Source: Blautia sp.
GTDB taxonomy: Bacteria; Bacillota; Clostridia; Lachnospirales; Lachnospiraceae
Assembly (NCBI GenBank): GCA_022764275.1
Contig: JALERH010000028.1
Location: 1-64,000 of the forward strand
Direction: 5' to 3'
DNA: 64,000 nucleotides
Shown piece after piece: positions 29,255-52,462 of the stretch; position 1 is the stretch's first letter, and the number at the start of each line of letters is the position of its first letter. A program made the translations under genes and the position numbers. Below the pieces are notes generated by a model. It saw only the letters and a list, made by a program, of their open reading frames with translations, was not told the origin of the DNA and searched no databases.

Positions 29255-31288
29255 TTGAAAAAGAAATTGGTTGCAGTATTGCTGGGAATGTCTCTGATGT
29301 TGTCATCTGCCCCGGGAGTCGGAGCAGAAGCAATGGATGGAGGCTTTGCAGCAGAGTTTGATTCGGAAACAGAAGCAACGTCGGAAGCAGTGACCGAGGC
29401 ACCGGAAGAGACAGCTCAGGAGGAGTCTGCATTTGAAGATGGATTTACTTCCGGTGAGGAAAATGATCATGAAGAAACCAATATCCCGGATATATTTGGC
29501 GAAGGGGAAAGCGTGACAGATGGTGCCTCTGAAGCTGCAGACGGGACAGAAGAACAGGAAAAGAAAAACTGCTGGCAATGGGATCGATTGGCAGGCGCTT
29601 TCCAATATTATGGAGAAAACGGTGAACCGATGACCATGGAAGAAGTGGAAGCACTGTGGAAGGCTCAGGGCAAATATACGGGCTATTACGAAATTGACAA
29701 CGAATATTATTGCCTGGACGAAAATGGAATTCCCAGAACGGGCGAAATTACGCTGACGGTAAACGGCATTTCTGCTGCCTACTATTTTGATCCGGCAGTG
29801 GATTCCCTGGGGATTTTCGGAAAAATGTTCCGAAATGGATGGCGTTGTTTCAATGACGAAAAGGGCGAGAGATGGGTCTGCTACGACACAGGAGAACAGA
29901 ATCCTGCGGATATGGGAAAACTCTATGTCCACGGCACAATTGCCACAGAACTGGATAATCTCAAGGGTGGCGACACCTATCTGATTGATAAAAATGGCTA
30001 CCTGCTTAAGGGAAAAACCATGACAAAGGCAGCAGATGGCTGCTATTATGCTACAGATGCCGCAGGCCGTGTATATAAGGATAAGATTATCACCTATAAG
30101 AATAATAAGTATTATTTCGGCTCAGATGGCAAAAAGGTAATCTGGCAGAACAGCTGGCACCGTTGCCCGGGAGCTGGAAACCGTCTTTATTATTTTGGAA
30201 AAAAGCCCGGCAGAATCGAAAAGAAGACAGGCTGGCAGAAGATTCCGAGAAGTAACGGAAAGTTCTACGGATGGTTTTACTTTAACAAAAATGGCGATCA
30301 CTATGTCGATAAGCTTACCTCGAGCGGTTATTATTTTAAACCGGACGGCAGACTTGCCAGTGGTCTTACCGTGATTGGCGGAAAGAGCTATTTCTTTGAG
30401 ATTTCCACTTCTGAGACACGGAAAGGAAAGATGATAAAGGGTAAGATGTTTACCTACAAGAAGAAGACCTACTATGCATCTGCAAGTGGTGTGCTCCGTG
30501 GAAGCGGTTGGCAGAAGATTGACGGCGATTATTACTATTTTAAAGATATGGTTGCCGTAAAAGATACTTTCATCAAAAAAGGTAATACATACGGATATCT
30601 TGACAACACTGGAAAATTTACAACGGGATGGGTTGTTGTGGATGATTCCAGAAATCTTGTTCGGTACCTGAATCCGGATAAAAAAGGATTTGTGCAGAAT
30701 ACTTCCAAGTGGATTGACGGAAAACTCTATTATTTTGATAAAGATGGATATCGTATCAACGATCTGACATCCAGATATACAAGCGGATACAGTCTGGAAG
30801 TTGACCGTGTCAATGGAGTCATGACCGTGTACGCAGAGGGTGGAACAGTACCGGTAAAATCTATTCGTGTTTCTGTCGGCTTGTCCGGAACACCGACGCC
30901 GACCGGAACATATCGCCTTTCAAGAGGAGGAAGATGGCAGAGCCTGATGGGACCATCCTGGGGTCAGTATGCCAGTCATGTGGATGGAGCCGGACAGGGT
31001 GGAATCTTTGTTCACTCCATAGCATGCAGCCTGCCTAACAGCTATAACCTGCCTGTAAGTGCATATAATATGCTGGGTAATCCGGCATCACACGGATGCA
31101 TCCGTACCTGCGTTGCTGATGCAAAATGGGTTTATGAGCACTGCATTGGATCCCAGATCAGAATCTTCGATGGTGCCTATAAGGCACAGGAATCCTTCAA
31201 AGGACCACTGGGCCGCAGAGCACTGGAGCCATTAAGAGCACCGAAGAACGGCGGATACTATGACCCTACGGATCCGGCTGTAGTATAA
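29255..31288 (+). CDS. Secreted L,D-transpeptidase (YkuD) with wall-binding repeats
   Basis: Signal peptide, acidic linker, repeats of the W-x-YF-x-G type, YkuD motif VHSI...SHGCIRT. Confidence 0.9.
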   Translation: MKKKLVAVLLGMSLMLSSAPGVGAEAMDGGFAAEFDSETEATSEAVTEAPEETAQEESAFEDGFTSGEENDHEETNIPDIFGEGESVTDGASEAADGTEEQEKKNCWQWDRLAGAFQYYGENGEPMTMEEVEALWKAQGKYTGYYEIDNEYYCLDENGIPRTGEITLTVNGISAAYYFDPAVDSLGIFGKMFRNGWRCFNDEKGERWVCYDTGEQNPADMGKLYVHGTIATELDNLKGGDTYLIDKNGYLLKGKTMTKAADGCYYATDAAGRVYKDKIITYKNNKYYFGSDGKKVIWQNSWHRCPGAGNRLYYFGKKPGRIEKKTGWQKIPRSNGKFYGWFYFNKNGDHYVDKLTSSGYYFKPDGRLASGLTVIGGKSYFFEISTSETRKGKMIKGKMFTYKKKTYYASASGVLRGSGWQKIDGDYYYFKDMVAVKDTFIKKGNTYGYLDNTGKFTTGWVVVDDSRNLVRYLNPDKKGFVQNTSKWIDGKLYYFDKDGYRINDLTSRYTSGYSLEVDRVNGVMTVYAEGGTVPVKSIRVSVGLSGTPTPTGTYRLSRGGRWQSLMGPSWGQYASHVDGAGQGGIFVHSIACSLPNSYNLPVSAYNMLGNPASHGCIRTCVADAKWVYEHCIGSQIRIFDGAYKAQESFKGPLGRRALEPLRAPKNGGYYDPTDPAVV

Positions 31289-31303
31289 GATGAGAGGGAA
31301 TAT

Positions 31304-32662
31304 ATGAAAAAATGGAGAAACTGGTTGTCAGCGATTTTGCTGACAGCCATTTTTGCAGCAGGGTTTACAGCAGGGCAGTCGACAGTGAAAGCAGAGCCCA
31401 TGCCATATGACAGAAGCGATAATGTGTCACCGGAGGAACTGGTGCCACGTGTCGGTGCATCCCGCACGACGACGGTCAGCCCCAATGCATGGAAAAAGAT
31501 AAATGGAATCTGCTACAACGGAAGCGGTAAGGTTATTCCGGGAGCAATTACCAGAGGAATCGATGTCTCTGAGTGGCAGGGAAAGATTGACTGGCAGAAG
31601 GTAAAGAATTCCGATGTGGATTTTGCATTTGTACGAATTTCTTACGGAAGCGGTTATCTGGATAAAACTTATGATTACAATATGCAGGAAGCAGAACTGG
31701 CAGGCGTTCCGGTAGGAACGTACGTATATAGTCTGGCTACGAGCACTACGATGGCTCTGAAGGAAGCTCAGCTTGCCATTGAGAAGATGAAAGGGAAAAA
31801 AGTATCTTATCCGGTGGTGTTTGACCTGGAAGATGCAGGTACCATGGGGAAACTATCAAAATCCATGGTTTCCAAGATTGCGCTCACTTTCTGTGACGAG
31901 ATCCGAAAAGCCGGGTACACTCCCATGCTTTATATGAATCTGAACTGGTACAACAATCATGTAGACTGGAGCCTTCTGGAAGGATCCGGCCTGGACGTGT
32001 GGGTTGCCTCGTTCGGAGACACGATCAATGCTCCGGATAACAGCAAATACACATATACTATCTGGCAGAGCACGGCAGGTGACACGATTCCCGGCATGAA
32101 TACGACGAAGAAGCTGATTGACGGAATCCCACCCGAAAATAATGTGGATGTAAACTTTGGATTCGTGGATTATACAACGAAAATTGCGCCGCGCTGGGAG
32201 CCGAAGGCGGGCTATATTCCATCCACCCAGCCATTATATCCGGATGAAACCGTAAAAAACGGGCTTATTACGGAGAACGGCAAAACCTACTATTATGTGA
32301 ATGGAACGATGTACACCGGTTGGAGAAAAATCAGCGGGAAATATTATTTTTTCAGTAAAATAGCCGGATATATGCTGAAAAGCAAGCTGGTGAAGGTGGA
32401 TGGAGGTATTTACTATGTAGATAAGAATGGTGCACGTGTTTCCAATAAGTTTCTTACCAAAAGCAATAAGACCTATTATTTCGGCTCAAACGGGAAGGCA
32501 TACAAAGGATGGCATACCATTAACGGAAAAAAATACTATTTCTATAAAGGAGAGGGCCCAAATGCCGGTGTCCGCGCGGAAAATATTACGCTGACAAGCT
32601 CCACAGGCGTTGTCTCTGTATTTAATAAAAATGGCGTATGTACAAAGCAGTACAGGAAGTAA
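31304..32662 (+). CDS. GH25 lysozyme with C-terminal wall-binding repeats
   Basis: GIDVSEWQGKIDW, VFDLEDAG, YTIWQ; signal peptide; C-terminal repeats. Confidence 0.92.
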   Translation: MKKWRNWLSAILLTAIFAAGFTAGQSTVKAEPMPYDRSDNVSPEELVPRVGASRTTTVSPNAWKKINGICYNGSGKVIPGAITRGIDVSEWQGKIDWQKVKNSDVDFAFVRISYGSGYLDKTYDYNMQEAELAGVPVGTYVYSLATSTTMALKEAQLAIEKMKGKKVSYPVVFDLEDAGTMGKLSKSMVSKIALTFCDEIRKAGYTPMLYMNLNWYNNHVDWSLLEGSGLDVWVASFGDTINAPDNSKYTYTIWQSTAGDTIPGMNTTKKLIDGIPPENNVDVNFGFVDYTTKIAPRWEPKAGYIPSTQPLYPDETVKNGLITENGKTYYYVNGTMYTGWRKISGKYYFFSKIAGYMLKSKLVKVDGGIYYVDKNGARVSNKFLTKSNKTYYFGSNGKAYKGWHTINGKKYYFYKGEGPNAGVRAENITLTSSTGVVSVFNKNGVCTKQYRK

Positions 32663-32670
32663 TGGTATTT

Positions 32671-33042
32671 ATGGAAAAAACGAGTAAAAGAAGCAGGCGC
32701 CTGAAAGACTACATATATCTGCATTTATCAATCCTTTTGTTTTCGTTCACTTCCGTTTTTACGAAGCTGGCATCCACAGAGTATAATAAAAACGGAATTT
32801 ATGGATGGAAGCTTTATCTCTTTCTGTTTTTGATGCTTTTGAACTGTTTTGTATATGCTCTGATATGGCAGAAGATTATCAGTCATTTTGAACTGAGTGT
32901 GGCCTATGCCAACAAGAGCGTATACCTTATCTGGACACAGGTCTGGGCAGTACTGATCTTCCATGAGGTACTGACAATACAGAATATCATTGGCTTAATG
33001 ATTGTCCTGGCAGGAGTACTGGTGGTGCAAAAATATGAATAA
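32671..33042 (+). CDS. Small EamA/SMR-type transporter subunit (ArnE/F-like half)
   Basis: About 4 TMs; AYANKSVYLIWTQVWAVLIFHE; overlaps its partner by 8 nt. Confidence 0.78.
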   Translation: MEKTSKRSRRLKDYIYLHLSILLFSFTSVFTKLASTEYNKNGIYGWKLYLFLFLMLLNCFVYALIWQKIISHFELSVAYANKSVYLIWTQVWAVLIFHEVLTIQNIIGLMIVLAGVLVVQKYE

Positions 33043-33373
33043 ATATATGCTGTTAATGTTTTTGGGAACATTTTTTACTGCATTTTCCCAGCTGCTCCTG
33101 AAGCAAAGTGCAGGAAAGACCTATCGACATCCTATTTTTGAATATCTGAACTGGCGTGTGATCACGGCATATGGAATCTTTGTCGGTGTGCTGCTTTTGA
33201 ACACTTACGCTTATACACATGTGGATATGAAATATGGCGCTGTCATTGATACGTTCAGTTATGTGTTTGTCATGCTGCTGTCTTATTTCATTCTGAAAGA
33301 GAAGTTTACAAAGGGAAAGCTCGCGGGAAATCTTCTGATCATGACAGGGATTTTCATATACACCCTGGGTTAA
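33035..33373 (+). CDS. Small EamA/SMR-type transporter subunit (partner)
   Basis: About 4 TMs; MKYGAVIDTFSYVFVMLLSYFILKEKF; ATG 33035 inside the preceding ORF end. Confidence 0.78.
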   Translation: MNKYMLLMFLGTFFTAFSQLLLKQSAGKTYRHPIFEYLNWRVITAYGIFVGVLLLNTYAYTHVDMKYGAVIDTFSYVFVMLLSYFILKEKFTKGKLAGNLLIMTGIFIYTLG

Positions 33374-33385
33374 AACAAAAGAAAG

Positions 33386-33430
33386 CGCCATGAAATAGTC
33401 CTTAGTGTGGGACTGCTTCATGGCGTTTTT
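33386..33430. terminator. Bidirectional terminator between convergent operons
   Basis: CGCCATGAA..AGTCC - ttagtgt - GGACT..TTCATGGCG followed by TTTTTT. Confidence 0.85.
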
Positions 33431-33445
33431 TACGTTATCGGAATC

Positions 33446-34702
33446 TTACTCCGGATATTCTGGGATTTTGTTTTGATATAAAATATTTTCTCCTGCAGGG
33501 GAAAGAACTTTTATCTGCTCAAAAATTTCCTGTGTCAGCCGGTCGGCTTCCCTGCGGTCTTTACAGGTAATGTAGTAGCGGGTGACATAGGGATTTTTTC
33601 CATGTGAGACAATTTGTTCCCCTTTTTTGTAAAAAGACCAGTATTCCTTTACACCGGGCAGGGCAGAAAGTGCATCTGCTTTTGTCTGATCCTCTACGAG
33701 CATGCCATTTTTTCCGTGAAAATACAGAACCGCACAGCAGTTGGAAAAACGGGGAGAATGCTCAAGCAGTCTCTTTGGAATATTGGATTCGTCGTATACG
33801 TAGTCCAGGAGGAGATCCTCCATTGCCAGTCCGCTGCAGTATTCCACAAGCTCATGTTCATAGCCGAAAAAACGTCCTGCGATTTCACAAACCGACACCG
33901 GACAGCCTGGTTTCCAGAAAAACTGCATGGAAAGTGCACCTGAGTTTTGGTTTGTATAATTGACCACTTTCTGAAGCACTTCCCTCGCTTCGTCTATAAC
34001 CGAGTCCAGAAGGCGGGATGGATATACATTTCTGGTACTGACCGGAATATCGTGAGTTCCTGTCGGCGTCTTTTCCCGATCCGCAAGACTTAACACCTGT
34101 ACCTGACCGTCCACAACCCAGGTCATCATGTTAAATTCGTAACCGTCATGATATTCTTCCACCAGAAGTTTCTTGATTTCGGAGGTTTCACACACATAGG
34201 AAAACTGTTCCCGGATCTGCTCAGGGGAATCCAGCACCAGTACTCCACGGGATCCGTATTTATCCAAAGGTTTTACCACCACAGGAAAAGAAAAGTCTTT
34301 TAACGCACTGTCCGGGAAATCCGGGGAAATCATGGTAAAGCGCGGGGTAGCAATCCCAAGTTCAAGGAGCATTTCCTTCATTTTATACTTATTTCGGTAA
34401 AGCTCCAGCTTTTCCGGAGAAAAATAGCATTTCAGCCCTGCTTCTGCAGCAATTTTTACCATGCATTCAAAAAGATAATCGGAAAAAGAGGTAATGATAC
34501 CATCCACCTGTTCTCTGCGGCAAAGCCCGGCAATTTCGGAAATATTCCCGGGCGGAATGTCATAGGATTTGTCAGCATGGGCTTTTCCTTCGCTGTCACG
34601 GTAGCCATCCACCACAATGGTATAATATCCCCGGGCTTTGGCTGTCTCGATCAGTTGCACGAACTCTCTCAGAGAACCCAGAATCAAAAGTCTTTTTTTC
34701 AT
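33446..34702 (-). CDS. ATP-grasp domain protein (carboxylate-amine ligase-like)
   Basis: N-terminal pre-ATP-grasp fold (KKRLLILGS), FPVVVKPLDKYGSRGV, LLVEEYHDGYEFNM; start overlaps the upstream stop by 4 nt. Confidence 0.85.
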   Translation of the reverse strand: MKKRLLILGSLREFVQLIETAKARGYYTIVVDGYRDSEGKAHADKSYDIPPGNISEIAGLCRREQVDGIITSFSDYLFECMVKIAAEAGLKCYFSPEKLELYRNKYKMKEMLLELGIATPRFTMISPDFPDSALKDFSFPVVVKPLDKYGSRGVLVLDSPEQIREQFSYVCETSEIKKLLVEEYHDGYEFNMMTWVVDGQVQVLSLADREKTPTGTHDIPVSTRNVYPSRLLDSVIDEAREVLQKVVNYTNQNSGALSMQFFWKPGCPVSVCEIAGRFFGYEHELVEYCSGLAMEDLLLDYVYDESNIPKRLLEHSPRFSNCCAVLYFHGKNGMLVEDQTKADALSALPGVKEYWSFYKKGEQIVSHGKNPYVTRYYITCKDRREADRLTQEIFEQIKVLSPAGENILYQNKIPEYPE

Positions 34703-35676
34703 AAAACGTCTCCTGTTTCCTGTAAATGCTGCAAAAGAATGTGAGCCATATATTCCATATCCTCCGGCTGATACCTCTGGTCCACAGGAAGAGGCATGAT
34801 ATGGGAGGCAAGATCCCACTCCGTACAATCCGAAGGACACTGAGAAATCACATTATTCCAGTAAGTGGGAACAAATATTTTCTCAGCAGACAGCTTTTTC
34901 TTCAGCACAGCAGCCTGTTTTGTATAAAAAGGATATACAAACGGCACCTGAGGCATGGAAAAAGTCATTCCGTTCTGTGCGGACAGCAGGCTGTCCAGGA
35001 CTTTATAATTGGTTACACGGCGTCTGGCTGCAGTTTCATAGTCAATCCCTCGCAGGAGATTCTCCGTCAGGGCAGACATTCTTTTGACAGGTTCCTTGTA
35101 AAAATCATGGGCTGTATCCAGCATGTCCTGGTAATGATCAGATGCACTGTGCTCATAACGCCCCAGAATATGGGACATACGTGACGAAGAACTGTCCTTG
35201 GGCAGACTCTCATAGCTGTCCGGTATTTGCGGAAGATACAGATAAGAACCGTCCGGAAGACCGAAAAATTTGCGGCAGGAGTAAAGCGTCGGAATCCCTT
35301 CCACAGGTCTCTGGAAAAAGTCATGCGTGTGATCCACGAGAATGTTTCCATATTTTTTCTTCAGAGAGATTATTTTTTCTTCTGTCAGCTGGCCGTAATA
35401 ATTGATCAGATATACGTAAGAACCAGGCTGGGGTACAAACGAATCGGATGGCAGAAAATCCCGGGCAACCGGGTACCATTTCACAGTACCATCCCAGGAT
35501 TCACAGACCGAAGTCACAGAGTCGCAGATGAAACGGGGAAGATATAAAACCTTTACCGAAAGCTCCTCCAGCGCATACAAAAGAGCCGTGCGTCCCAGGT
35601 TCAGCCGGAGCAGGCTCTTGTGATATTCTTTTCCGTTTAAAGTTTCCATTTGGAAATAACCGCCGATTTCTTTCAT
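34699..35676 (-). CDS. Divergent DegT/DnrJ-fold aminotransferase-like protein
   Basis: LNLGRTALLYAL, VLYLPRFICDSV, ILVDHTHDF (in place of EDAAQ), SCRKFFGLPDGSYL (candidate PLP lysine). Confidence 0.65.
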   Translation of the reverse strand: MKEIGGYFQMETLNGKEYHKSLLRLNLGRTALLYALEELSVKVLYLPRFICDSVTSVCESWDGTVKWYPVARDFLPSDSFVPQPGSYVYLINYYGQLTEEKIISLKKKYGNILVDHTHDFFQRPVEGIPTLYSCRKFFGLPDGSYLYLPQIPDSYESLPKDSSSSRMSHILGRYEHSASDHYQDMLDTAHDFYKEPVKRMSALTENLLRGIDYETAARRRVTNYKVLDSLLSAQNGMTFSMPQVPFVYPFYTKQAAVLKKKLSAEKIFVPTYWNNVISQCPSDCTEWDLASHIMPLPVDQRYQPEDMEYMAHILLQHLQETGDVL

Positions 35677-36635
35677 TGATTTGTATCCCTCTCTTCGAAA
35701 GAGTCCTCCACTTCTGCCCTGCGGACTACATAATGAGGCATTTTCTTTGCCTCATCCAGTACATGCATCAGGTATTGGCCGAGGATACCAATGCCCAGCA
35801 GGATAAGTCCGTTATAGGCCAGAATCAGCAGCACAATGGTGGTAAAGCCCTCCACTGAGACGCCAAGGAAAAAATACCGGAACAGATAATAAAGTCCCAG
35901 GCAGATGCTGATGACAAAACTTATAATTCCAATATCGCGAACCACGATCAGAGGGAGAGAGGAATTCGTGGTAATGTCGTAAATCAGATCTTTTACAAGA
36001 CGACGGAAGGTGTAGCCGCTGCGGCCGAATTTCCGGGAATCATGCTGAACTTCTACATTAATAATACGATTGGAAGTCTGTACCAGAAGATTCCCAATCT
36101 GTGGAAGATGAATGGTGCTGCTCATGATGGAATCCATAATAAAACGCCGCATCAGCCGGAAGCTGGTGATTTCCAGATTGGGATCCTTATGCAGCATTTT
36201 GGATGTGGCATATACGGAAAGGCGGGTCCCCAGTTTCCGGATAAGATTGTGGTGGCGGTTGGCATATTTCGCAATGATCACATCCACATCATCCCGTTCG
36301 TTCATCACCTGAATCAGTTTTGGGATTTCTTCCGGCGGATGCTGCAGATCGTCATCCATAGTGATGACAAAATCTCCCTTTACATAAGAAAAGCCGCAGA
36401 GAAGTGCGGGGTGCTGTCCGAAGTTTTTGGCAAGCTGTATGGCTTTTACACGGGAATCCCGGTTATGTAAACGCTCCATAACGGAAAAGGAATTGTCCCG
36501 GGAGCTGTCGTCTACCAGAATCAATTCAAAGTCCTCGTGGACAGTTTCTTCAAAAACTGTTTTCAGGCGGGTATATAATTCTTCCAGCGTATGCTCGGAG
36601 TTGTACACAGGAACCACGATGGAATATAAACTCAT
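35673..36635 (-). CDS. ArnC/DPM1-like GT2 polyprenyl-phosphate glycosyltransferase
   Basis: SIVVPVYNSEHTLEEL, DDDLQHPPEEI, two C-terminal TMs. Confidence 0.9.
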   Translation of the reverse strand: MSLYSIVVPVYNSEHTLEELYTRLKTVFEETVHEDFELILVDDSSRDNSFSVMERLHNRDSRVKAIQLAKNFGQHPALLCGFSYVKGDFVITMDDDLQHPPEEIPKLIQVMNERDDVDVIIAKYANRHHNLIRKLGTRLSVYATSKMLHKDPNLEITSFRLMRRFIMDSIMSSTIHLPQIGNLLVQTSNRIINVEVQHDSRKFGRSGYTFRRLVKDLIYDITTNSSLPLIVVRDIGIISFVISICLGLYYLFRYFFLGVSVEGFTTIVLLILAYNGLILLGIGILGQYLMHVLDEAKKMPHYVVRRAEVEDSFEERDTNQ

Positions 36636-36792
36636 CCTTTGTTTCCTCCTTATTAAAAACTGGTGTTATTATATCATCCGGAAGTGTATGTGTAAATAGA
36701 TGGCGGGAAAATCGAATTCACAAGATTTCATTGACGGCATATTGTATATATGATACTATAAAATTCAACTCTTTGCACTGCATATAAATCTA

Positions 36793-36890
36793 CAGTACAA
36801 ACTGAGCAGACCAATGGCATTCTGCCATGGAGTCGGGCCATAATAGCGGCAGTGGTTTCTTCATCCACGGGACAGTAGTTACTAATACTG
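36793..36890 (+). ncRNA. NiCo (czcD) riboswitch aptamer
   Basis: AACTGAGCAG-AC-CAATGGC-attct-GCCATGGAGTCGGGCCATAATAGCGGCAGTGG...CCACGGGACAGT matches the remembered conserved core (ACUGAGCAG..CAUGcAGcCGGGC..AGCGGCA..GGGACAGU) and lies before a CDF gene. Confidence 0.9.
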
Positions 36891-36904: not shown

Positions 36905-36992
36905 ATACTCATTTTTATGTTTCTTATAACAATTCACGGATCCGTTAGTGCCATCGAGTTATCTTAATATTTTAATTTGGGGGGTAACTGAT

Positions 36993-37910
36993 ATGAAAGA
37001 AAACCGAAACATGGCAGAAAAAAATCAAGTAACAGACAATCAATTTCAAAAGATTGTAAACAAAGTATCTTTGATCACAATTATTCTGAATGCACTGCTC
37101 TCCGTTTTTAAGCTCTTTGCAGGAATTTTCGCTCATTCGACTGCAATGATCAGCGATGCAGTCCACTCCGCTTCTGATGTGTTCAGTACAATAATCGTCA
37201 TAATAGGCGTAGGAATTTCCACCCGGGATGCGGACAGGGAGCATCCATACGGTCATGAGCGAATGGAGTGCGTTGCCGCCATTCTTTTGTCCACGGTGTT
37301 GTTTTTCACAGGCTTGGGAATCGGGATTCAGGCACTTGGCGACATCATGCAGGGAAATTATGAAAGCCTGGAAATGCCTGGAATATTGGCACTTATCGCG
37401 GCTGTGGTATCAATTGTCACAAAAGAAGGAATGTACTGGTATACGCGGTATTATGCAAAAAAAATCGATTCATCCGCGTTGATGGCGGATGCATGGCATC
37501 ACCGTTCGGATGCTTTTTCTTCTATTGGCGCACTGATTGGCATCGCAGGTTCAAGATTGGGTTTCCCTGTCATGGATGCGGCAGCCAGCCTGGTCATTTT
37601 TGTGTTTATTGTAAAAGCTGCTTTTGATATCTTTAAGGATGCCCTGAATAAAATGGTAGACCATTCCGGAGATGAAAAAACGGAAAAAGAAATCTATAAC
37701 TGCGTTATGAGGCATGAGGATGTGCGGGGAATCGATTTGCTCCGGAGCCGTATTTTTGGCAACAAGATTTATGTGGATCTGGAAATTGAAGTGAATGCAT
37801 CATACACTTTGGAGAGAGCGCATGAGATTGCGGAAGAAGTACATGAAGAAATTGAGAGAAACTTTCCGAAAGTAAAACATGTGATGATACATGTGAATCC
37901 TGCAAAGTAA
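36993..37910 (+). CDS. Cation diffusion facilitator family transporter
   Basis: CDF fold: HSTAMISDAVHSASDVFSTIIV, DADREHPYGHERME, ADAWHHRSDAFSS. Confidence 0.95.
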   Translation: MKENRNMAEKNQVTDNQFQKIVNKVSLITIILNALLSVFKLFAGIFAHSTAMISDAVHSASDVFSTIIVIIGVGISTRDADREHPYGHERMECVAAILLSTVLFFTGLGIGIQALGDIMQGNYESLEMPGILALIAAVVSIVTKEGMYWYTRYYAKKIDSSALMADAWHHRSDAFSSIGALIGIAGSRLGFPVMDAAASLVIFVFIVKAAFDIFKDALNKMVDHSGDEKTEKEIYNCVMRHEDVRGIDLLRSRIFGNKIYVDLEIEVNASYTLERAHEIAEEVHEEIERNFPKVKHVMIHVNPAK

Positions 37911-38824: not shown

Positions 38825-39994
38825 ATGGAGTTTAACAGGAAAACGATGTCAGATGAAATGAGACCTCGCATTCCGTTTAATAAGCCCGCCTTTGTGGGGA
38901 CGGAATTACAATATATCAAAGACGCAGTGGACAGGGGAATGCTTTGTGGAGATGGAGAGTATACGAAAAAATGCTCGTCCTGGATGCAGAAGCATTTTGA
39001 TGTGAGTCAGGTGTTTCTCACCACATCCTGCACACATGCGTTGGAAATGGCGGCTTATCTTTCGGATATAAAGCCGGGAGATGAAGTGATCATGCCATCC
39101 TTTACCTTTGTGTCCACAGCGGATGCCTTTGTGCTATGGGGAGCGAAAATTGTTTTTGTGGATATTCGCCCGGATACCATGAATATAGATGAAAATTTGA
39201 TTGAGGACGCCATCACCCCCAGGACAAAGGCCATAGTCCCGGTCCATTATGCGGGAGTGGGCTGTGAGATGGATACCATTATGGAAATCGCCCGCAGGCA
39301 CGGACTGAAAGTGGTGGAGGATGCTGCCCAGGGTGTCAATGCCTTTTACAAAGGCAGGGCACTGGGAACGATCGGGGACTTCGGGTGCTACAGCTTTCAC
39401 GAGACAAAGAATTATACCATGGGAGAAGGCGGTGCACTGGTATTCCAGGATGATGCTTATCAGGAAAGGGCGGAGATTCTTCGGGAAAAAGGAACAGACC
39501 GCAGTAAGTTTTTCCGCGGGCAGGTAGACAAATACCGCTGGATTGACTATGGCTCCTCGTATCTCCCCAGTGAGATGAACGCGGCCTATCTTTACGCCCA
39601 GCTTGAAAAGAGTGAGGAAATCAACCGTAAACGCCGGAAGATATACGATTTTTACCATGAGAATCTGAAGCCTCTGGAAGAGAAGGGATACATCAAACGT
39701 CCATTCGTGCCAGAGGAGGCGGAGCATAATGCACATATGTATTATCTGAAGGTAAAAGATCTGGAGACCAGGACACGGCTGATTTCTTATTTAAGGGAAC
39801 ATAAAATTTACAGTGCATTCCACTATATCCCGCTGCACAGTTCTCCGGCAGGACAGAAATTCGGTCGTTTTCACGGAGAGGACAGGTACACCACGAAGGA
39901 AAGTGAGCGGCTGCTCAGACTTCCCATGTTTTACAACCTTTCCATGGAGGATGTGGAATACATTACGGATACAATACTTGCGTTTGATTTTTAA
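38825..39994 (+). CDS. rffA: dTDP-4-amino-4,6-dideoxygalactose transaminase (WecE/RffA-like)
   Basis: IPFNKPAFVGTELQYIKDAV, VEDAAQGVNAFYKGRALGTIGDFGCYSFHETKNYTMGEGGAL. Confidence 0.92.
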   Translation: MEFNRKTMSDEMRPRIPFNKPAFVGTELQYIKDAVDRGMLCGDGEYTKKCSSWMQKHFDVSQVFLTTSCTHALEMAAYLSDIKPGDEVIMPSFTFVSTADAFVLWGAKIVFVDIRPDTMNIDENLIEDAITPRTKAIVPVHYAGVGCEMDTIMEIARRHGLKVVEDAAQGVNAFYKGRALGTIGDFGCYSFHETKNYTMGEGGALVFQDDAYQERAEILREKGTDRSKFFRGQVDKYRWIDYGSSYLPSEMNAAYLYAQLEKSEEINRKRRKIYDFYHENLKPLEEKGYIKRPFVPEEAEHNAHMYYLKVKDLETRTRLISYLREHKIYSAFHYIPLHSSPAGQKFGRFHGEDRYTTKESERLLRLPMFYNLSMEDVEYITDTILAFDF

Positions 39995-40029: not shown

Positions 40030-41190
40030 TTGATAATAAAAAGAAAATATGTGAGCCCCATTATGACGGTTATCCTGTCCGTGCTGCTGGTGGGAAATAT
40101 GTCTGTTCAGGCAGCTGGGGTGGTGAGTAACGGAACCATGGGGCAGGTTACCTCAGATGCGTCTCTGCCGGCGCCTCCGGATACTTTTTCGGAGACAGCT
40201 GTTCTGATGGATGCGGATACCGGAAAGGTCCTTTATGGAAAAGGGGAAAATGACATTCGTTATCCGGCCAGTATCACAAAGCTGATGACGCTGCTTCTGG
40301 CAGTGGAAAATGCTTCACTGGAGGATCAGGTGACCTTTACTGAGACCGGTGTGAGGGAAGTGACCCCGGACAGCGGAAACATCGGCATGCAGGTGGGCGA
40401 GGTGATGTCCATGGAATCCTGCCTTTACGCCGCCATTATTCAGTCCGCAAATGAGGTTTCCACTCAGATTGCAGAGTATGTGGGCGGAACGGAGGAGCAT
40501 TTCATCGAGATGATGAACCAGAAGGCGCAGGAACTGGGATGCAAAAATACTCATTTTGTAAATGCCAACGGAATGCCGGATGAGAACCACTATTCCACTG
40601 CATATGACATGGCTCTGATCATGCAGGCTGGTCTGAAAAATGAAACCTTCCGGGAAATCATCCGTACACCGAGTTATACGATCCCGGCTACCAATATGAG
40701 CAAGAAGCGCAAGCTTCACACACATCTGCCTCTGCTGGCGGAGGAATCGGCCTTTTATTACGAAGGCTGCCTTGGAGGAAAGACAGGACTTACCACTGCG
40801 GCACAAAATACCATGGTGGTGGCAGCTCAGAGGGACGGCAGCACATATATTGTGGTGACCATGCGGGACGCCGAACTCAGCAAAAACTGTACGGACAGCA
40901 TCAACCTTCTGGATTATGCGTTCAATAATGTGCAGAAGGCTCCCGAACCTAGCCCGACCCCTGAGCCAACGTCTGCACCGGGTCCTGAGCCGGAAAAGTT
41001 TCAGGAGACAGAACCGGCATCTGCGATTACAGAATCGCCTGCAGAGATGGAGCAGCCCCAGTCACAGAAAACAGGTTCTCTTGCCGAATACAGAGACATT
41101 TTGCTGATCATCATGGCAGGAATGGTTGTGATCCTGCTCATTCTATGCATCGCACTTGCAGGAAAGAAGCGCAGAAAGCGCAGAAGATAA
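40030..41190 (+). CDS. D-alanyl-D-alanine carboxypeptidase (DacF-like)
   Basis: SITK, SAN and KTG motifs; signal peptide; C-terminal TM. Confidence 0.92.
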   Translation: MIIKRKYVSPIMTVILSVLLVGNMSVQAAGVVSNGTMGQVTSDASLPAPPDTFSETAVLMDADTGKVLYGKGENDIRYPASITKLMTLLLAVENASLEDQVTFTETGVREVTPDSGNIGMQVGEVMSMESCLYAAIIQSANEVSTQIAEYVGGTEEHFIEMMNQKAQELGCKNTHFVNANGMPDENHYSTAYDMALIMQAGLKNETFREIIRTPSYTIPATNMSKKRKLHTHLPLLAEESAFYYEGCLGGKTGLTTAAQNTMVVAAQRDGSTYIVVTMRDAELSKNCTDSINLLDYAFNNVQKAPEPSPTPEPTSAPGPEPEKFQETEPASAITESPAEMEQPQSQKTGSLAEYRDILLIIMAGMVVILLILCIALAGKKRRKRRR

Positions 41191-41206
41191 AAAAAGGAGA
41201 AGAAAA

Positions 41207-41761
41207 ATGGGAAAAATTAAAGTAACAAACTGTGGAGACATTGAAGGATTAAAGGTGATTGAGCCGACTGTTTTCGGGGATTCCAGAGGATATTTTATGG
41301 AAACCTATAATTACAATGATTTTAAGGAAGCGGGAATTGACGTGGAATTTGTCCAGGACAACCAGTCCTGTTCCAGGTACGGTGTTCTGAGAGGCCTTCA
41401 TTTTCAGATCAATTACCCGCAGGACAAGCTTGTCCGTGTGGTAAACGGCGAGGTGTTTGACGTTGCTGTGGATTTGAGAGAAGGCTCCAAAACCTACGGA
41501 AAATGGTTTGGCGTGCTTCTTTCTGCAGAAAATAAAAAACAGTTCTTTATTCCAAAGGGATTTGCACACGGCTTTCTGGTACTGTCCGAGACCGCGGAGT
41601 TTACCTATAAATGTTCTGACTTCTATCATCCAAACGACGAGGGCGGCCTGATCTGGAATGATCCGGATATCGGGGTGGAGTGGCCGATTCCGGAAGGAAT
41701 GGAGCTGATCTTCTCTGACAAGGATCAGAAATGGGGAAGCTTTAAGGAATTCCGAAGATAG
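41207..41761 (+). CDS. rfbC: dTDP-4-dehydrorhamnose 3,5-epimerase
   Basis: GVLRGLHFQ, DVAVDLREGSKTYGKW, FIPKGFAHGFLVLS. Confidence 0.95.
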   Translation: MGKIKVTNCGDIEGLKVIEPTVFGDSRGYFMETYNYNDFKEAGIDVEFVQDNQSCSRYGVLRGLHFQINYPQDKLVRVVNGEVFDVAVDLREGSKTYGKWFGVLLSAENKKQFFIPKGFAHGFLVLSETAEFTYKCSDFYHPNDEGGLIWNDPDIGVEWPIPEGMELIFSDKDQKWGSFKEFRR

Positions 41762-41770
41762 GAGAATGCT

Positions 41771-42586
41771 ATGCTGAAAACGATTCTGGCTCTTCCGGCG
41801 GATGTTTACAAAAACCGCCGGATGGTCATGAAACTGGCCAAAAATGATTTTAAGACCCGATATGCCGGTTCCTATTTCGGAACCTTCTGGGCTTTTGTTC
41901 AGCCGATTGTTACCATTCTGGTGTACTGGTTTGTATTTTCCGTGGGCTTTCGTTCCAATACGGACAGCGTGGGAGTGCCTTTTGTGCTCTATCTGGTTGC
42001 GGGAATCGTTCCGTGGTTCTTCTTTCAGGATTCCCTGATCGGAGGGACGAATTCCCTTATTGAATATAATTATCTCGTAAAGAAAGTCGTCTTTAATATC
42101 AGTGTTCTTCCGGTTGTGAAGATAATTTCTGCCATATTTGTACACGGCTTTTTTGTGTTGTTTACGATTATTCTGTATATGTGTTACGGAAGATTTCCGG
42201 ATCTCTATTATCTGCAGCTCATTTATTACAGTTTTTGCGTATTTGTGCTGGTACTGGGAGTCTGTTATGCTACCTGCTCCATTGTGATCTTTTTCCGGGA
42301 TCTGACCCAGATGATCAACATTGGCCTTCAGGTGGGAGTATGGCTCACTCCAATTATGTGGGTGGCAGAGGATGCCCTGAAAGGACATGCTCTTCTGCAG
42401 AAGATTCTGCAGTTAAATCCCATGTATTATATTGTGTCCGGATATCGGGATTCCCTGATCATGAAACGCTGGTTTTTTGAACGTCCTTTGTGGACCCTTT
42501 ATTTCTGGCTGTTTGCCATTGGCTGTTTCCTTCTTGGAAACTGGATATTCCGGCGTCTTCGTGTTCATTTTGCCGATGTACTGTAA
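41771..42586 (+). CDS. Polysaccharide ABC exporter permease (Wzm/TagG-like)
   Basis: ABC-2 TM topology; DFKTRYAGSYFGTFWAFVQPI. Confidence 0.93.
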   Translation: MLKTILALPADVYKNRRMVMKLAKNDFKTRYAGSYFGTFWAFVQPIVTILVYWFVFSVGFRSNTDSVGVPFVLYLVAGIVPWFFFQDSLIGGTNSLIEYNYLVKKVVFNISVLPVVKIISAIFVHGFFVLFTIILYMCYGRFPDLYYLQLIYYSFCVFVLVLGVCYATCSIVIFFRDLTQMINIGLQVGVWLTPIMWVAEDALKGHALLQKILQLNPMYYIVSGYRDSLIMKRWFFERPLWTLYFWLFAIGCFLLGNWIFRRLRVHFADVL

Positions 42587-42606
42587 GAGGAGAGAAAGGA
42601 AACAAC

Positions 42607-43863
42607 GTGGAAAGTAAAAATGCCATTGAAGTAAAACATTTATCAAAAATGTATAAGCTCTACGACAAGCCCTCTGACCGACTGAAAGAGTCTCTGGGCC
42701 TGACCCGTAAAAAGCGTTATCGGGAGCATTATGCACTGCGGGATATCAACTTTAATATTCACGAGGGAGAATGCGTGGGAATCATCGGAACCAATGGATC
42801 TGGAAAATCCACCATTCTGAAAATCATAACCGGAGTTCTGGCACCTACAGAAGGGGAGGTAAAAGTTAACGGACGTATTTCCGCTCTGCTGGAGCTGGGT
42901 GCAGGATTTAATATGGAATATTCCGGACTGGAAAACGTGTATCTGAACGGTACCATGATCGGTTTTTCAGAAGAGGAGATCGACGCAAGACTGGATGATA
43001 TCCTTGCCTTTGCGGACATCGGTGACTATATCCATCAGCCGGTTAAAATGTATTCCAGCGGTATGTTTGTCCGGCTTGCCTTTGCGGTTGCCATTAACAT
43101 TGACCCGGAAATCCTGATCGTGGATGAGGCGTTGTCCGTGGGAGACGTCTTTTTTCAGGCAAAATGCTATCACAAATTTGAAGAATTTAAACAGCAGGGA
43201 AAGACAATCCTGTTCGTAAGCCATGATCTGGGAAGCGTGTCCAAATACTGTGACCGGGTGATTCTGCTGAATCAGGGTGTCATGCTGGATGAAGGCACAC
43301 CCAAGGCCATGGTGGATATGTACAAGCAGCTTCTGGTTCACCAGGATCCTGTGAAACAGGCTGAAGGAGAGGACAAAAAGCCGGAGGAAAACTGGAGGGA
43401 AGGCTTCCAGGTGAACCCCAATACTCTGGAATACGGGGAAAAACAGGCGGAAATCAAGGATTTTGTCGTGCTGGATGACAAAGGACGTCAGACCAATACC
43501 ATTGAAAAGGGAAGCACTTTCCGAATCAAGATGAAGATACACTTTAACGAAGATATCCAGCAGCCCATTATGGCATACACCTTTAAAAATATACAGGGAA
43601 CGGAGATTACCGGAACCAATACCATGTACGAAGGTGTCACTGTGGAGCATCCGGATGCTGGCAGAGAGTGTGTGGTGACCTTTGAACAGAGGATGGATCT
43701 TCAGGGTGGGGAATATCTTCTGTCCTTTGGATGTACCGGATACAAAGACGGAGATTTTGCTGTATTTCACCGCCTTTATGACGCATGTAACATTACAGTT
43801 GTCTCTTCCAAAAATACGGTGGGCTTTTACGATATGAATTCCAGCGTATCCGTGGAAGAATAA
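42607..43863 (+). CDS. Polysaccharide ABC exporter ATPase with C-terminal Wzt-type domain
   Basis: Walker A GTNGSGKSTI, MYSSGMFVRLAF, IVDEALSVGD; about 140-aa C-terminal beta-sandwich. GTG 42607. Confidence 0.94.
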   Translation: MESKNAIEVKHLSKMYKLYDKPSDRLKESLGLTRKKRYREHYALRDINFNIHEGECVGIIGTNGSGKSTILKIITGVLAPTEGEVKVNGRISALLELGAGFNMEYSGLENVYLNGTMIGFSEEEIDARLDDILAFADIGDYIHQPVKMYSSGMFVRLAFAVAINIDPEILIVDEALSVGDVFFQAKCYHKFEEFKQQGKTILFVSHDLGSVSKYCDRVILLNQGVMLDEGTPKAMVDMYKQLLVHQDPVKQAEGEDKKPEENWREGFQVNPNTLEYGEKQAEIKDFVVLDDKGRQTNTIEKGSTFRIKMKIHFNEDIQQPIMAYTFKNIQGTEITGTNTMYEGVTVEHPDAGRECVVTFEQRMDLQGGEYLLSFGCTGYKDGDFAVFHRLYDACNITVVSSKNTVGFYDMNSSVSVEE

Positions 43864-51019: not shown

Positions 51020-52462
51020 ATGAAAAATTTTTTGAAAAATGAAAAATATCTTGGCGGGATACTGGTGGGGCTTGCTTTTCTGATCATGTTTATCTGGGCG
51101 ATGATCGGTACGATGCCCACCGGACCCGATGAAGGGATGCGCTACTCGGTGGCGCAGTACCTTTATAAAAATCCGGGAAAGCTTCCGCATGGGGATGATG
51201 AGGCGATACGAAATGCCAGATGGGGAATTTCGTATGGCTTCTCTCCAATTCTGTCTTATATGGTATCGGCAGTCTTTATGTGGATGGTGAGTATTATTAC
51301 CACAGAGAAGATGGCCCTGCTTCGGGCTGCAAGAATGGCTGATGTACTCTTTATCACAGCTGCCGCCTGGATGGTGCTTCAGATTGGAAAAAGACTTTTC
51401 TCAGATAAGGGACAGCGCTGGCTGTTCTGCGTACTGGTGATTTTTCTTCCTGAGTTTTTATTTATGGGAGCCTATGTGAACACGGATTCTCTGGCGTTGA
51501 TGGCAGGGGCGATGATCCTTCTGGCATGGGTGCGATATCTGGACGAAGGATGGACCTGGAAAAACTGTTTCCTTCTGGCAGCAGGCATGGGAATCTGCTT
51601 TTTATCTTACTATAATGCGTATGGATGGATTTTATGGAGCGCGTTTTTCTTTTGCATGACTGTGCTTTTCTGCTCCGATGCATCCTGGAAAGAACGATGG
51701 AAATTCCTTTTTGGCAGAGGAATCGCCATTGCCGGTGTTACCCTCGGGATTGCGGGCTGGTGGTTTATCCGAAACTTTGTGATTTACGATGGAGATATTC
51801 TGGGACGCCATGCCAGCGACCTCTGTGCGGAAAAATATGCGTGGCCGGATTTTAAGCCATCGGTACGCATGACACCGGAGAAACTGGGATGGTCCTGTAA
51901 AGATCTGTTTCTTTATCAGGATCCCGGCTGGCAGCACAACTGGCTGATTACCGTAATGTTCAGCTTCATCGGAACTTTCGGGTATTTCCACATTTTTATG
52001 AACGAAACGGTGAGTAAAATTTATGTGTTGTTTCTGACTGTGGGAATGTGTGGAGTTTTCTGGATGCTCCGGGAATTTTACTGGAGAAAATCCACAGTTT
52101 CCATTATCCGGGTGCCGGATGCTGCCAAGGGGAAGCCTGTAAAGATAAAAACGATCTCAGGATTCCGGGAATGGAACAAAAAAGGATTTTTTCACCTTTC
52201 CATGGCAGCTGCTATGGTAACGCCGGTGGTCCTGTTCATCAGCTATGCGTATCATAGCGACCTCCAGGCACAGGGAAGATATATCCTGCCGGCTGTATAC
52301 CCCATCATGTACTTTGTGGTATGCGGTTATGGAAAGCTGCTGAAAAAATTCGTGAAAAGAGAAGAAGTGCGAAAGTGGTTTTACCGGATTACGGCAGTGC
52401 TTTGGGTGCTTGGAGCAGTGATTACTTTTGTGTCCCTGATCTTACCGGAATATCTGGGATAA
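51020..52462 (+). CDS. Polytopic membrane protein (DUF2142/GT-C-like)
   Basis: About 10 TMs; PTGPDEGMRYSVAQYL; located among GT genes. Confidence 0.7.
   Translation: MKNFLKNEKYLGGILVGLAFLIMFIWAMIGTMPTGPDEGMRYSVAQYLYKNPGKLPHGDDEAIRNARWGISYGFSPILSYMVSAVFMWMVSIITTEKMALLRAARMADVLFITAAAWMVLQIGKRLFSDKGQRWLFCVLVIFLPEFLFMGAYVNTDSLALMAGAMILLAWVRYLDEGWTWKNCFLLAAGMGICFLSYYNAYGWILWSAFFFCMTVLFCSDASWKERWKFLFGRGIAIAGVTLGIAGWWFIRNFVIYDGDILGRHASDLCAEKYAWPDFKPSVRMTPEKLGWSCKDLFLYQDPGWQHNWLITVMFSFIGTFGYFHIFMNETVSKIYVLFLTVGMCGVFWMLREFYWRKSTVSIIRVPDAAKGKPVKIKTISGFREWNKKGFFHLSMAAAMVTPVVLFISYAYHSDLQAQGRYILPAVYPIMYFVVCGYGKLLKKFVKREEVRKWFYRITAVLWVLGAVITFVSLILPEYLG

Follow-up and report, generated by a model that had tools for sequence, protein, structure and literature searches.

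The 64,000-nucleotide stretch of Blautia sp. DNA analysed here (contig JALERH010000028.1, positions 1 to 64,000 of the forward strand; hereafter the window) carries a compact group of five genes at positions 32,671-36,635, which encode a family 2 glycosyltransferase (GT2), a divergent DegT-like protein, an ATP-grasp ligase and the two halves of a small multidrug resistance (SMR)-type transporter. According to the original prediction, this locus might be a Gram-positive analogue of the Arn pathway, and the question it raises is what sugar these genes make, how they export it and where it is placed. From gene families, folds, active-site conservation, an opposite topology signature, synteny and co-occurrence, all of which were computed, an Arn-like lipid-linked aminosugar route is quite likely. 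In its fuller form, the module probably performs an extracytoplasmic, Arn-like decoration of a wall polymer, in which a deoxythymidine diphosphate (dTDP)-4-amino-4,6-dideoxyhexose would be N-acylated via the ATP-grasp ligase, the acyl group tailored by the pyridoxal phosphate (PLP) enzyme, and the sugar transferred onto a rhamnose-type wall polysaccharide.

The ArnC-like transferase, the SMR pair and WecE

The GT2 (minus strand, 35,673-36,635) possesses C-terminal transmembrane (TM) helices and matches PF00535 (E=3e-32). Its profile hits ArnC best in the PDB (E=1.7e-54), followed by the GtrB-type sll0501 (E=3e-46) and then by dolichol-phosphate mannose synthase, and it shares 32% identity with E. 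coli ArnC across 309 aa, in agreement with the ArnC-type assignment of the original prediction. Because its NCBIfam ArnC score (174) is far under the equivalog cut-off (529), the protein is, judged by these scores, ArnC-like rather than ArnC itself. PgfS is among its nearest named NCBIfam models. The GT2 is thus predicted to be a polyprenyl-phosphate loading enzyme.

SMR half 1 (plus strand, 32,671-33,042, with an alternative in-frame start at 32,638) is predicted to be N-in and resembles ArnE, while half 2 (plus strand, 33,035-33,373) is predicted to be its N-out partner and starts at an ATG at 33,035, giving an 8-nt overlap of the two genes. Half 1 shows an EamA-like match (E=1.5e-5) under the Pfam gathering score; its best NCBIfam model is ArnE, again under the cut-off, and BLASTP against E. 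coli ArnE gave E=8e-5. Half 2 matches Pfam EamA with E=1.4e-10. The lysine/arginine bias is opposite in the two halves (+4 to +13 in half 1, -3 to -5 in half 2), each in 10/10 homologs, and the halves are adjacent in all 10 aligned neighbourhoods. EmrE-type proton-coupled SMR drug exporters require an acidic residue in TM1. Neither half has one in any of the 10 homologs, and because of this absence the pair is read as different from the EmrE type; its features are as expected for an obligate antiparallel pair. The original claim of a paired SMR flippase is supported by the opposite bias, the overlapping genes and the ArnE-like half 1. In architecture the pair corresponds to a two-subunit SMR flippase; this likeness does not extend to orthology, the similarity to ArnE being weak.

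A WecE-type dTDP-4-amino-4,6-dideoxyhexose transaminase is encoded 2.2 kb from the cassette, beyond the region covered by the original prediction (plus strand, 38,825-39,994). It scores 634 bits with PRK11706 (cut-off 375) and 624 with TIGR02379 (cut-off 435), and its best PDB match is E. coli WecE (4piw, E=4e-160), far ahead of ArnB; the NCBIfam ArnB model gave only 210 against a cut-off of 631. By these profile scores, the enzyme in the ArnB role is a WecE orthologue. The analogy with a lipid-linked aminosugar pathway in a Gram-positive bacterium was supported by the ArnC-type GT2, the SMR pair and synteny, but the part of it that cast the DegT-fold protein as ArnB had to be given up, as WecE fills that role. 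Linkage of a true WecE to the SMR pair was the reason for rejecting the DegT-like protein as the ArnB equivalent.

All five open reading frames were found where they had been predicted. The minus-strand triple is joined by two 4-nt ATGA overlaps (35,673-35,676 and 34,699-34,702) and faces the SMR pair across a shared terminator. The grouping is not due to chance, since it recurs in order in many genomes. A genus survey covered 64 genomes, many of them draft metagenome-assembled genomes (MAGs), and its counts take no account of phylogeny. The five-gene set is syntenic in 12/64 genomes. The GT2 of the DegT-type cassette (at least 64% identity) was present in exactly the 12 genomes with a close (type-A) DegT-like protein (p=3e-13). 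SMR half 1 and WecE were both present in 50 genomes and both absent in 11, with three discordant (2+1; p=1e-9), two of which are fragmented MAGs; when both lay on one contig, they were less than 8 kb apart in 40 of 44 genomes. Most of the neighbourhoods retrieved from the genus and from Lachnospiraceae likewise show synteny of the GT2-DegT-ATP-grasp triple and the SMR pair; the triple itself was found in Erysipelotrichaceae and UBA3689 as well. Whether the genes are convergent, divergent or on the same strand, the SMR pair and the GT2 are found together. When 299 Lachnospiraceae-family genomes were searched with the GT2 alone, six further genera were obtained (L139-L144). In three of them (L140, L141 and L143) the GT2, DegT-like, ATP-grasp, both SMR, WecE and GT-C homologs (GT-C being the fold of the candidate transferase described below) all lie within 20 kb; L142 carries GT2-DegT-ATP-grasp followed by the contig end, and in L139 a contig end holds the SMR pair and the GT2. 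The conserved co-occurrence in related genomes on which the original prediction depended was thus found.

The ATP-grasp ligase, the DegT-like protein and the variable slot

The ATP-grasp ligase (minus strand, 33,446-34,702; its start at 34,702 is backed by alignment to relatives) matches ATP-grasp_4 (E=2e-8) and, in profile searches of the PDB, 4dim (E=1e-26) and the L-amino acid ligase BL00235 (3vot, E=2e-17). Residues K105, K144, E182, E183, E273 and R277 are invariant in the alignment of relatives, and the invariant lysines and acidic residues are those expected of ATP-grasp enzymes. The protein appears to be an amino-acid-type ATP-grasp enzyme with its catalytic residues in place, an amino acid being its predicted substrate. 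It is fairly likely that it acylates the 4-amino group of the sugar, presumably by aminoacylation.

The DegT-like protein (minus strand, 34,699-35,676) gave no significant Pfam or NCBIfam match (best 0.21, at the level of chance), no PF01041 match up to E=1 and nothing relevant in a profile search of PDB sequences. Its AlphaFold (AF2) model has a mean confidence score (pLDDT) of 95.8, and Foldseek matched this model to PDB entries of DegT-family sugar aminotransferases (lowest E=4e-12, TM-score ~0.6), which agrees with the DegT fold (PLP fold-type I) suggested earlier. K136 and D115 are invariant in 73/73 relatives and were assigned to the PLP site by aligning motifs with those of classical DegT enzymes rather than by superposing structures; the loss of the PLP lysine that would have spoken against the original prediction was thus not observed. 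On the evidence of the model and the motif alignment, the protein combines a DegT fold with the PLP lysine and aspartate, outside the reach of PF01041.

The neighbours of this family are informative. In 75 of 87 loci from many phyla, a gene of the ATP-grasp, WbqC or FemAB family (assigned by Pfam) directly adjoins the DegT-like gene on the same strand (ATP-grasp 37, WbqC 31, FemAB-type 4, ATP-grasp plus WbqC 3), and seven further loci have such a partner within 4 kb. The three partner types are nearly mutually exclusive. WbqC is presumably an acyl (glycine) transferase, and DesI makes 4-amino-4,6-dideoxyhexose; for the transaminases near DegT-like genes in Bacteroidetes and in Proteus, DesI is the best-scoring model, at a score below its cut-off that is indicative only. 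By its neighbours across phyla, the DegT-like family thus accompanies 4-amino sugars together with a protein of the acyl- or aminoacyl-transfer type and is not bound to any one export route.

In Proteus mirabilis H63 (L137, a record labelled plasmid despite its length of 4.08 Mb), genes for a DesI-like aminotransferase, a glycosyltransferase, WbqC and the DegT-like protein are consecutive in a polysaccharide-type cluster. A type-B context, with ATP-grasp, DegT-like and ATP-grasp genes in a row within a different kind of surface-polysaccharide cluster, was seen in L014, L019, L024, L025, L029, L030, L035 and others. Six Planococcus/Planomicrobium loci (L020, L022, L023, L028, L034 and L048) place the DegT-like gene in a Planococcaceae neighbourhood, where neither an ATP-grasp nor a WbqC neighbour was detected and no clear sugar genes are close by; in four of the six, it directly follows one or two FemAB/GNAT proteins.

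In many genomes of the genus, the cassette occupies a slot between a block of DAC-like, YbbR, HPr, YkuD and GH25 genes on one side and the genes from WecE to Wzt on the other, and the cassette content between these flanks differs. Alternative cassettes carry other ATP-grasp enzymes and a different GT2; in a tree with long ArnC and L015 branches, used solely to show the two clades, the GT2s of the slot fall into two deeply separate clades, and the alternative cassettes have the other one. Six sister genomes encode a separate fold-II PLP enzyme (D-cysteine desulfhydrase/1-aminocyclopropane-1-carboxylate deaminase group) beside the cassette ATP-grasp gene. Twenty more show a fold-II PLP match, near SMR half 1 or on a contig fragment, inside a frame of 600-760 aa that is consistent with an ATP-grasp fusion; for L107, L111 and L112, a domain search confirmed the fusion. 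The SMR pair occurs in 52 genomes; the fold-II type was counted in 26 of these and the DegT type in 12, and in no genome did the two coincide at the cassette (p=9e-5). L108-L110 possess two ATP-grasp genes, and no PLP enzyme was detected there. The verified fusions (ATP-grasp plus a D-cysteine desulfhydrase-like PALP domain; L107:10466-12637, L111:6635-8743, L112:6758-8947) adjoin the SMR pair, an ArnC-like GT2 and WecE.

That the PLP partner works for the ligase step is hinted at most strongly by these fusions. Based on position and the mutual exclusion of the two cassette types, we infer that the DegT-like protein plays the same part as the fold-II enzyme. Its ATP-grasp, WbqC and FemAB neighbours across phyla, together with the fold-II enzyme found instead in sister cassettes, suggest that it belongs to the acyl-ligation step, where its tailoring of the acyl or amino acid group is predicted with slightly less than even confidence. 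More tentatively, the wall polysaccharide of the Blautia group may be diversified via a serotype-like slot, with a constant chassis of WecE, ArnC-type GT2 and SMR pair and with interchangeable amino-acid tailoring units (an ATP-grasp enzyme plus either a new fold-I DegT-like PLP enzyme or a D-cysteine desulfhydrase-like fold-II one, the latter often fused). The DegT-like proteins would then represent an unrecognised cross-phylum PLP family, tailoring the amino acid on 4-amino-4,6-dideoxy sugars with ATP-grasp, WbqC or FemAB partners.

The proposed route, its rivals and known systems

The cluster beyond WecE contains, in order, a D-Ala-D-Ala carboxypeptidase-like gene, RmlC of the dTDP-rhamnose pathway (plus strand, 41,156-41,761; TIGR01221 262 bits, cut-off 156), a Wzm/Wzt-type ABC exporter (plus strand, 41,771-43,863; Pfam ABC2_membrane, ABC_tran and Wzt_C, with a TagH-like ATPase bearing Wzt_C), a methyltransferase and several large GT2s, and is by its gene content an ABC-exported rhamnose-type wall polysaccharide cluster. 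Further on, a multi-TM protein (plus strand, 51,020-52,462) has no significant Pfam match and no significant sequence match to ArnT. Its AF2 model (pLDDT 82.6) retrieved 13 PDB matches with E<1e-3 in Foldseek, each of them a GT-C enzyme or a complex that includes such an enzyme, with ArnT (5f15) among them, and a PDE motif following TM1 is invariant in 15/15 aligned relatives. It is thus predicted to take the ArnT role, transferring sugar from the lipid donor to the polymer. The gene was present in 12/12 genomes with the DegT-type cassette and in 12/52 others.

The reactions, the identity and stereochemistry of the sugar, the acyl group, the order of acylation and lipid loading, and the acceptor polymer are all deduced from these genes. 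RmlA and RmlB (an RmlB homolog was found in the same genome) would produce dTDP-4-keto-6-deoxyglucose, in common with rhamnose synthesis, and WecE would aminate it to a dTDP-4-amino-4,6-dideoxyhexose, by homology 4-amino-4-deoxyfucose (Fuc4N). The 4-amine would then be acylated by the ATP-grasp ligase, the most probable acyl group being an amino acid that the DegT-like PLP protein would make or tailor before or after ligation. The ArnC-type GT2 would move the sugar onto undecaprenyl phosphate (Und-P), the antiparallel SMR heterodimer would flip Und-P-sugar outward, and the candidate GT-C enzyme would attach the sugar to the rhamnose-type polysaccharide that the adjacent Wzm/Wzt exports.

The same lipid-linked route could use the DegT-like protein as a second nucleotide-sugar aminotransferase, for example for a diamino sugar, with the ATP-grasp enzyme acylating the second amine. 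The Foldseek neighbours are indeed DegT sugar aminotransferases, and the lysine and aspartate of the PLP site are invariant. We consider this unlikely, as WecE already supplies the 4-amino group, no extra dehydratase or dehydrogenase that could introduce another keto group was seen repeatedly alongside the cassette, the PLP enzyme of the sister cassettes is of an amino-acid type (D-cysteine desulfhydrase family) rather than a sugar enzyme, and the Proteus and Bacteroidetes loci already have a DesI-type 4-aminotransferase. A destination other than the Wzm/Wzt-exported polysaccharide, namely protein, lipid or teichoic acid, is comparably doubtful. PgfS, which by its name comes from a streptococcal protein-glycosylation system, is among the nearest named models of the GT2, and an acceptor is not readable from sequence; against this, most of the genus genomes that were read place the cassette directly next to the WecE-RmlC-Wzm-Wzt cluster, and the GT-C homolog is located within or next to polysaccharide clusters.

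Two further explanations would uncouple the SMR pair from the remaining genes, and both are very improbable. The GT2, DegT-like and ATP-grasp proteins might produce an aminoacyl-sugar that acts as a small, diffusible metabolite: pairs of ATP-grasp and PLP enzymes are known from natural-product clusters, and the two transcripts in the window converge on a terminator. Yet the SMR pair and the GT2 remain together in all three gene orientations, and an ArnC-type GT2 with TM helices acts on lipid phosphate. The SMR pair might likewise be an ordinary EbrAB-like drug-efflux heterodimer that only neighbours a polysaccharide locus, as weak matches to EbrA/EbrB and Qac models could suggest; but the TM1 acidic residue is missing, ArnE is the top NCBIfam match of half 1, and the pair co-occurs with and adjoins WecE and the GT2 genus-wide. 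The match to unrelated drug-efflux pairs that would have contradicted the original prediction did not appear, and a drug-efflux role was rejected on the missing residue and the gene context.

Several observations weigh against the wall-polymer decoration proposed here. Shared ancestry is not corrected for in the co-occurrence counts, and draft MAGs make up many of the genomes. In the window, the GT-C gene is 15 kb from the other cassette genes, and other GT-C genes may exist. The fold of the DegT-like protein resembles sugar aminotransferases, so that its substrate may be a sugar, and in type-B loci the ATP-grasp/DegT/ATP-grasp genes occur in other polysaccharide clusters without the ArnC-type GT2 and SMR pair, which means that the combination of DegT-like and ATP-grasp proteins is not confined to lipid-phosphate donors. 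ATP-grasp-GT2-SMR-WecE occurs in some genomes of the genus in which no PLP enzyme was detected; L144 (53% GT2 identity) has WecE, ATP-grasp and GT2 but no DegT; and in genome G042 the SMR pair and WecE are about 31 kb from the GT2-DegT-ATP-grasp genes.

The module shares with the Arn system of Gram-negative bacteria (ArnB, ArnC, ArnE/ArnF and ArnT; 4-amino-4-deoxyarabinose (Ara4N)-lipid A) an ArnC-type GT2, a paired SMR flippase, a GT-C transferase, a 4-amino sugar from a DegT-family transaminase and modification of the amine before export. Unlike Arn, which employs a uridine diphosphate (UDP)-pentose, it has a dTDP-6-deoxyhexose made by WecE; ATP-grasp acylation replaces ArnA formylation and ArnD deformylation, with an extra PLP protein; and the likely acceptor is a Gram-positive wall polysaccharide, lipid A not being expected in a Gram-positive bacterium. 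Neither ArnA nor ArnD was found among the profiled reading frames of the window, the rest of the genome not having been searched for them. The module works like Arn but is not the Arn pathway, because its transaminase is WecE, its GT2 scores far under the ArnC cut-off, and acylation and an extra PLP protein are built in.

Three-component extracytoplasmic glycosylation systems, such as GtrA/GtrB/Gtr, CsbB/GtcA/YfhO and the C. youngae O1 system (PMC11127046, PMC7389260), also use a polyprenyl-phosphate glycosyltransferase, a small flippase and a GT-C or other extracellular transferase to decorate a preformed polymer. Such a combination of polyprenyl-phosphate GT2, flippase and GT-C genes is present in the window, and in three further genera it spans no more than 20 kb; the module differs in its two-chain SMR flippase and its acylated 4-amino sugar donor, which has its own biosynthetic genes in the cassette. 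In the enterobacterial common antigen branch, WecE likewise makes dTDP-Fuc4N, but WecD acetylation and an undecaprenyl pyrophosphate (Und-PP) trisaccharide route take the place of ATP-grasp ligation and Und-P. WbqC polysaccharide clusters, such as that of L137, bring together a 4-aminotransferase, an acyl-transfer-type protein and the same DegT-like protein, although WbqC replaces ATP-grasp and the ArnC-type GT2 and SMR pair were not seen there. The glucorhamnan locus of Ruminococcus gnavus, a related gut member of the Lachnospiraceae, specifies a rhamnose wall polysaccharide whose reported side chains are glucose, and no acylated aminosugar is described in the parts of that review consulted (PMC12413058).

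No description of this cassette (Fuc4N or 4-amino-4-deoxyquinovose (Qui4N) with ATP-grasp) was found in a literature search that left most subscription journals outside and is hence weak; no functional paper on WbqC was found, and for Blautia polysaccharides the search returned the R. gnavus review alone (PMC12413058). A paper on CA_C2195 was set aside as a precedent, since its subject is another sugar locus, from Clostridium, that includes an ATP-grasp aminoacyl ligase. If the proposed route is true, the principle of Arn and the three-component systems would extend to acylated aminosugars on Gram-positive wall polysaccharides, a whole pathway would have a named gene for each step, and a role would be given to an uncharacterised PLP-fold family whose genes adjoin those of acyl ligases in Firmicutes, Bacteroidetes, Proteobacteria and other groups. 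If the wall polysaccharides of gut commensals carry charged and variable decorations, these could have consequences for phage adsorption, for tolerance of antimicrobial peptides and for recognition by the immune system, as the strain-specific immune effects of R. gnavus glucorhamnans suggest (PMC12413058).

Expression signals and neighbouring genes

The terminator between the converging transcripts is a bidirectional intrinsic hairpin at about 33,380-33,431; the segment 33,374-33,440 has a folding energy of -31.7 kcal/mol (z=-7.5 versus shuffles), with T-runs flanking both sides. A sigma-70-type promoter of the GT2-DegT-ATP-grasp operon was identified on the minus strand at 36,668-36,696 (TTTACA-17-TATAAT), matching 11 of 12 consensus positions with a spacing of 17 and a TG preceding the second hexamer. 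A Shine-Dalgarno sequence, AAGGAGGA, lies between this promoter and the GT2 gene.

No defence link was reported by PADLOC. On the left of the cassette, genes for a YkuD L,D-transpeptidase and a GH25 lysozyme, each with choline/glucan-binding-type repeats, span 29,255-32,662 on the plus strand; many genomes of the genus conserve these two genes on the left side of the variable slot. The interval that separates the cassette from WecE contains a NiCo riboswitch (RF02683) at 36,792-36,877 on the plus strand (64.5 bits, gathering score 37) and, directly downstream of it, a cation diffusion facilitator (CDF) efflux gene at 36,948-37,910.

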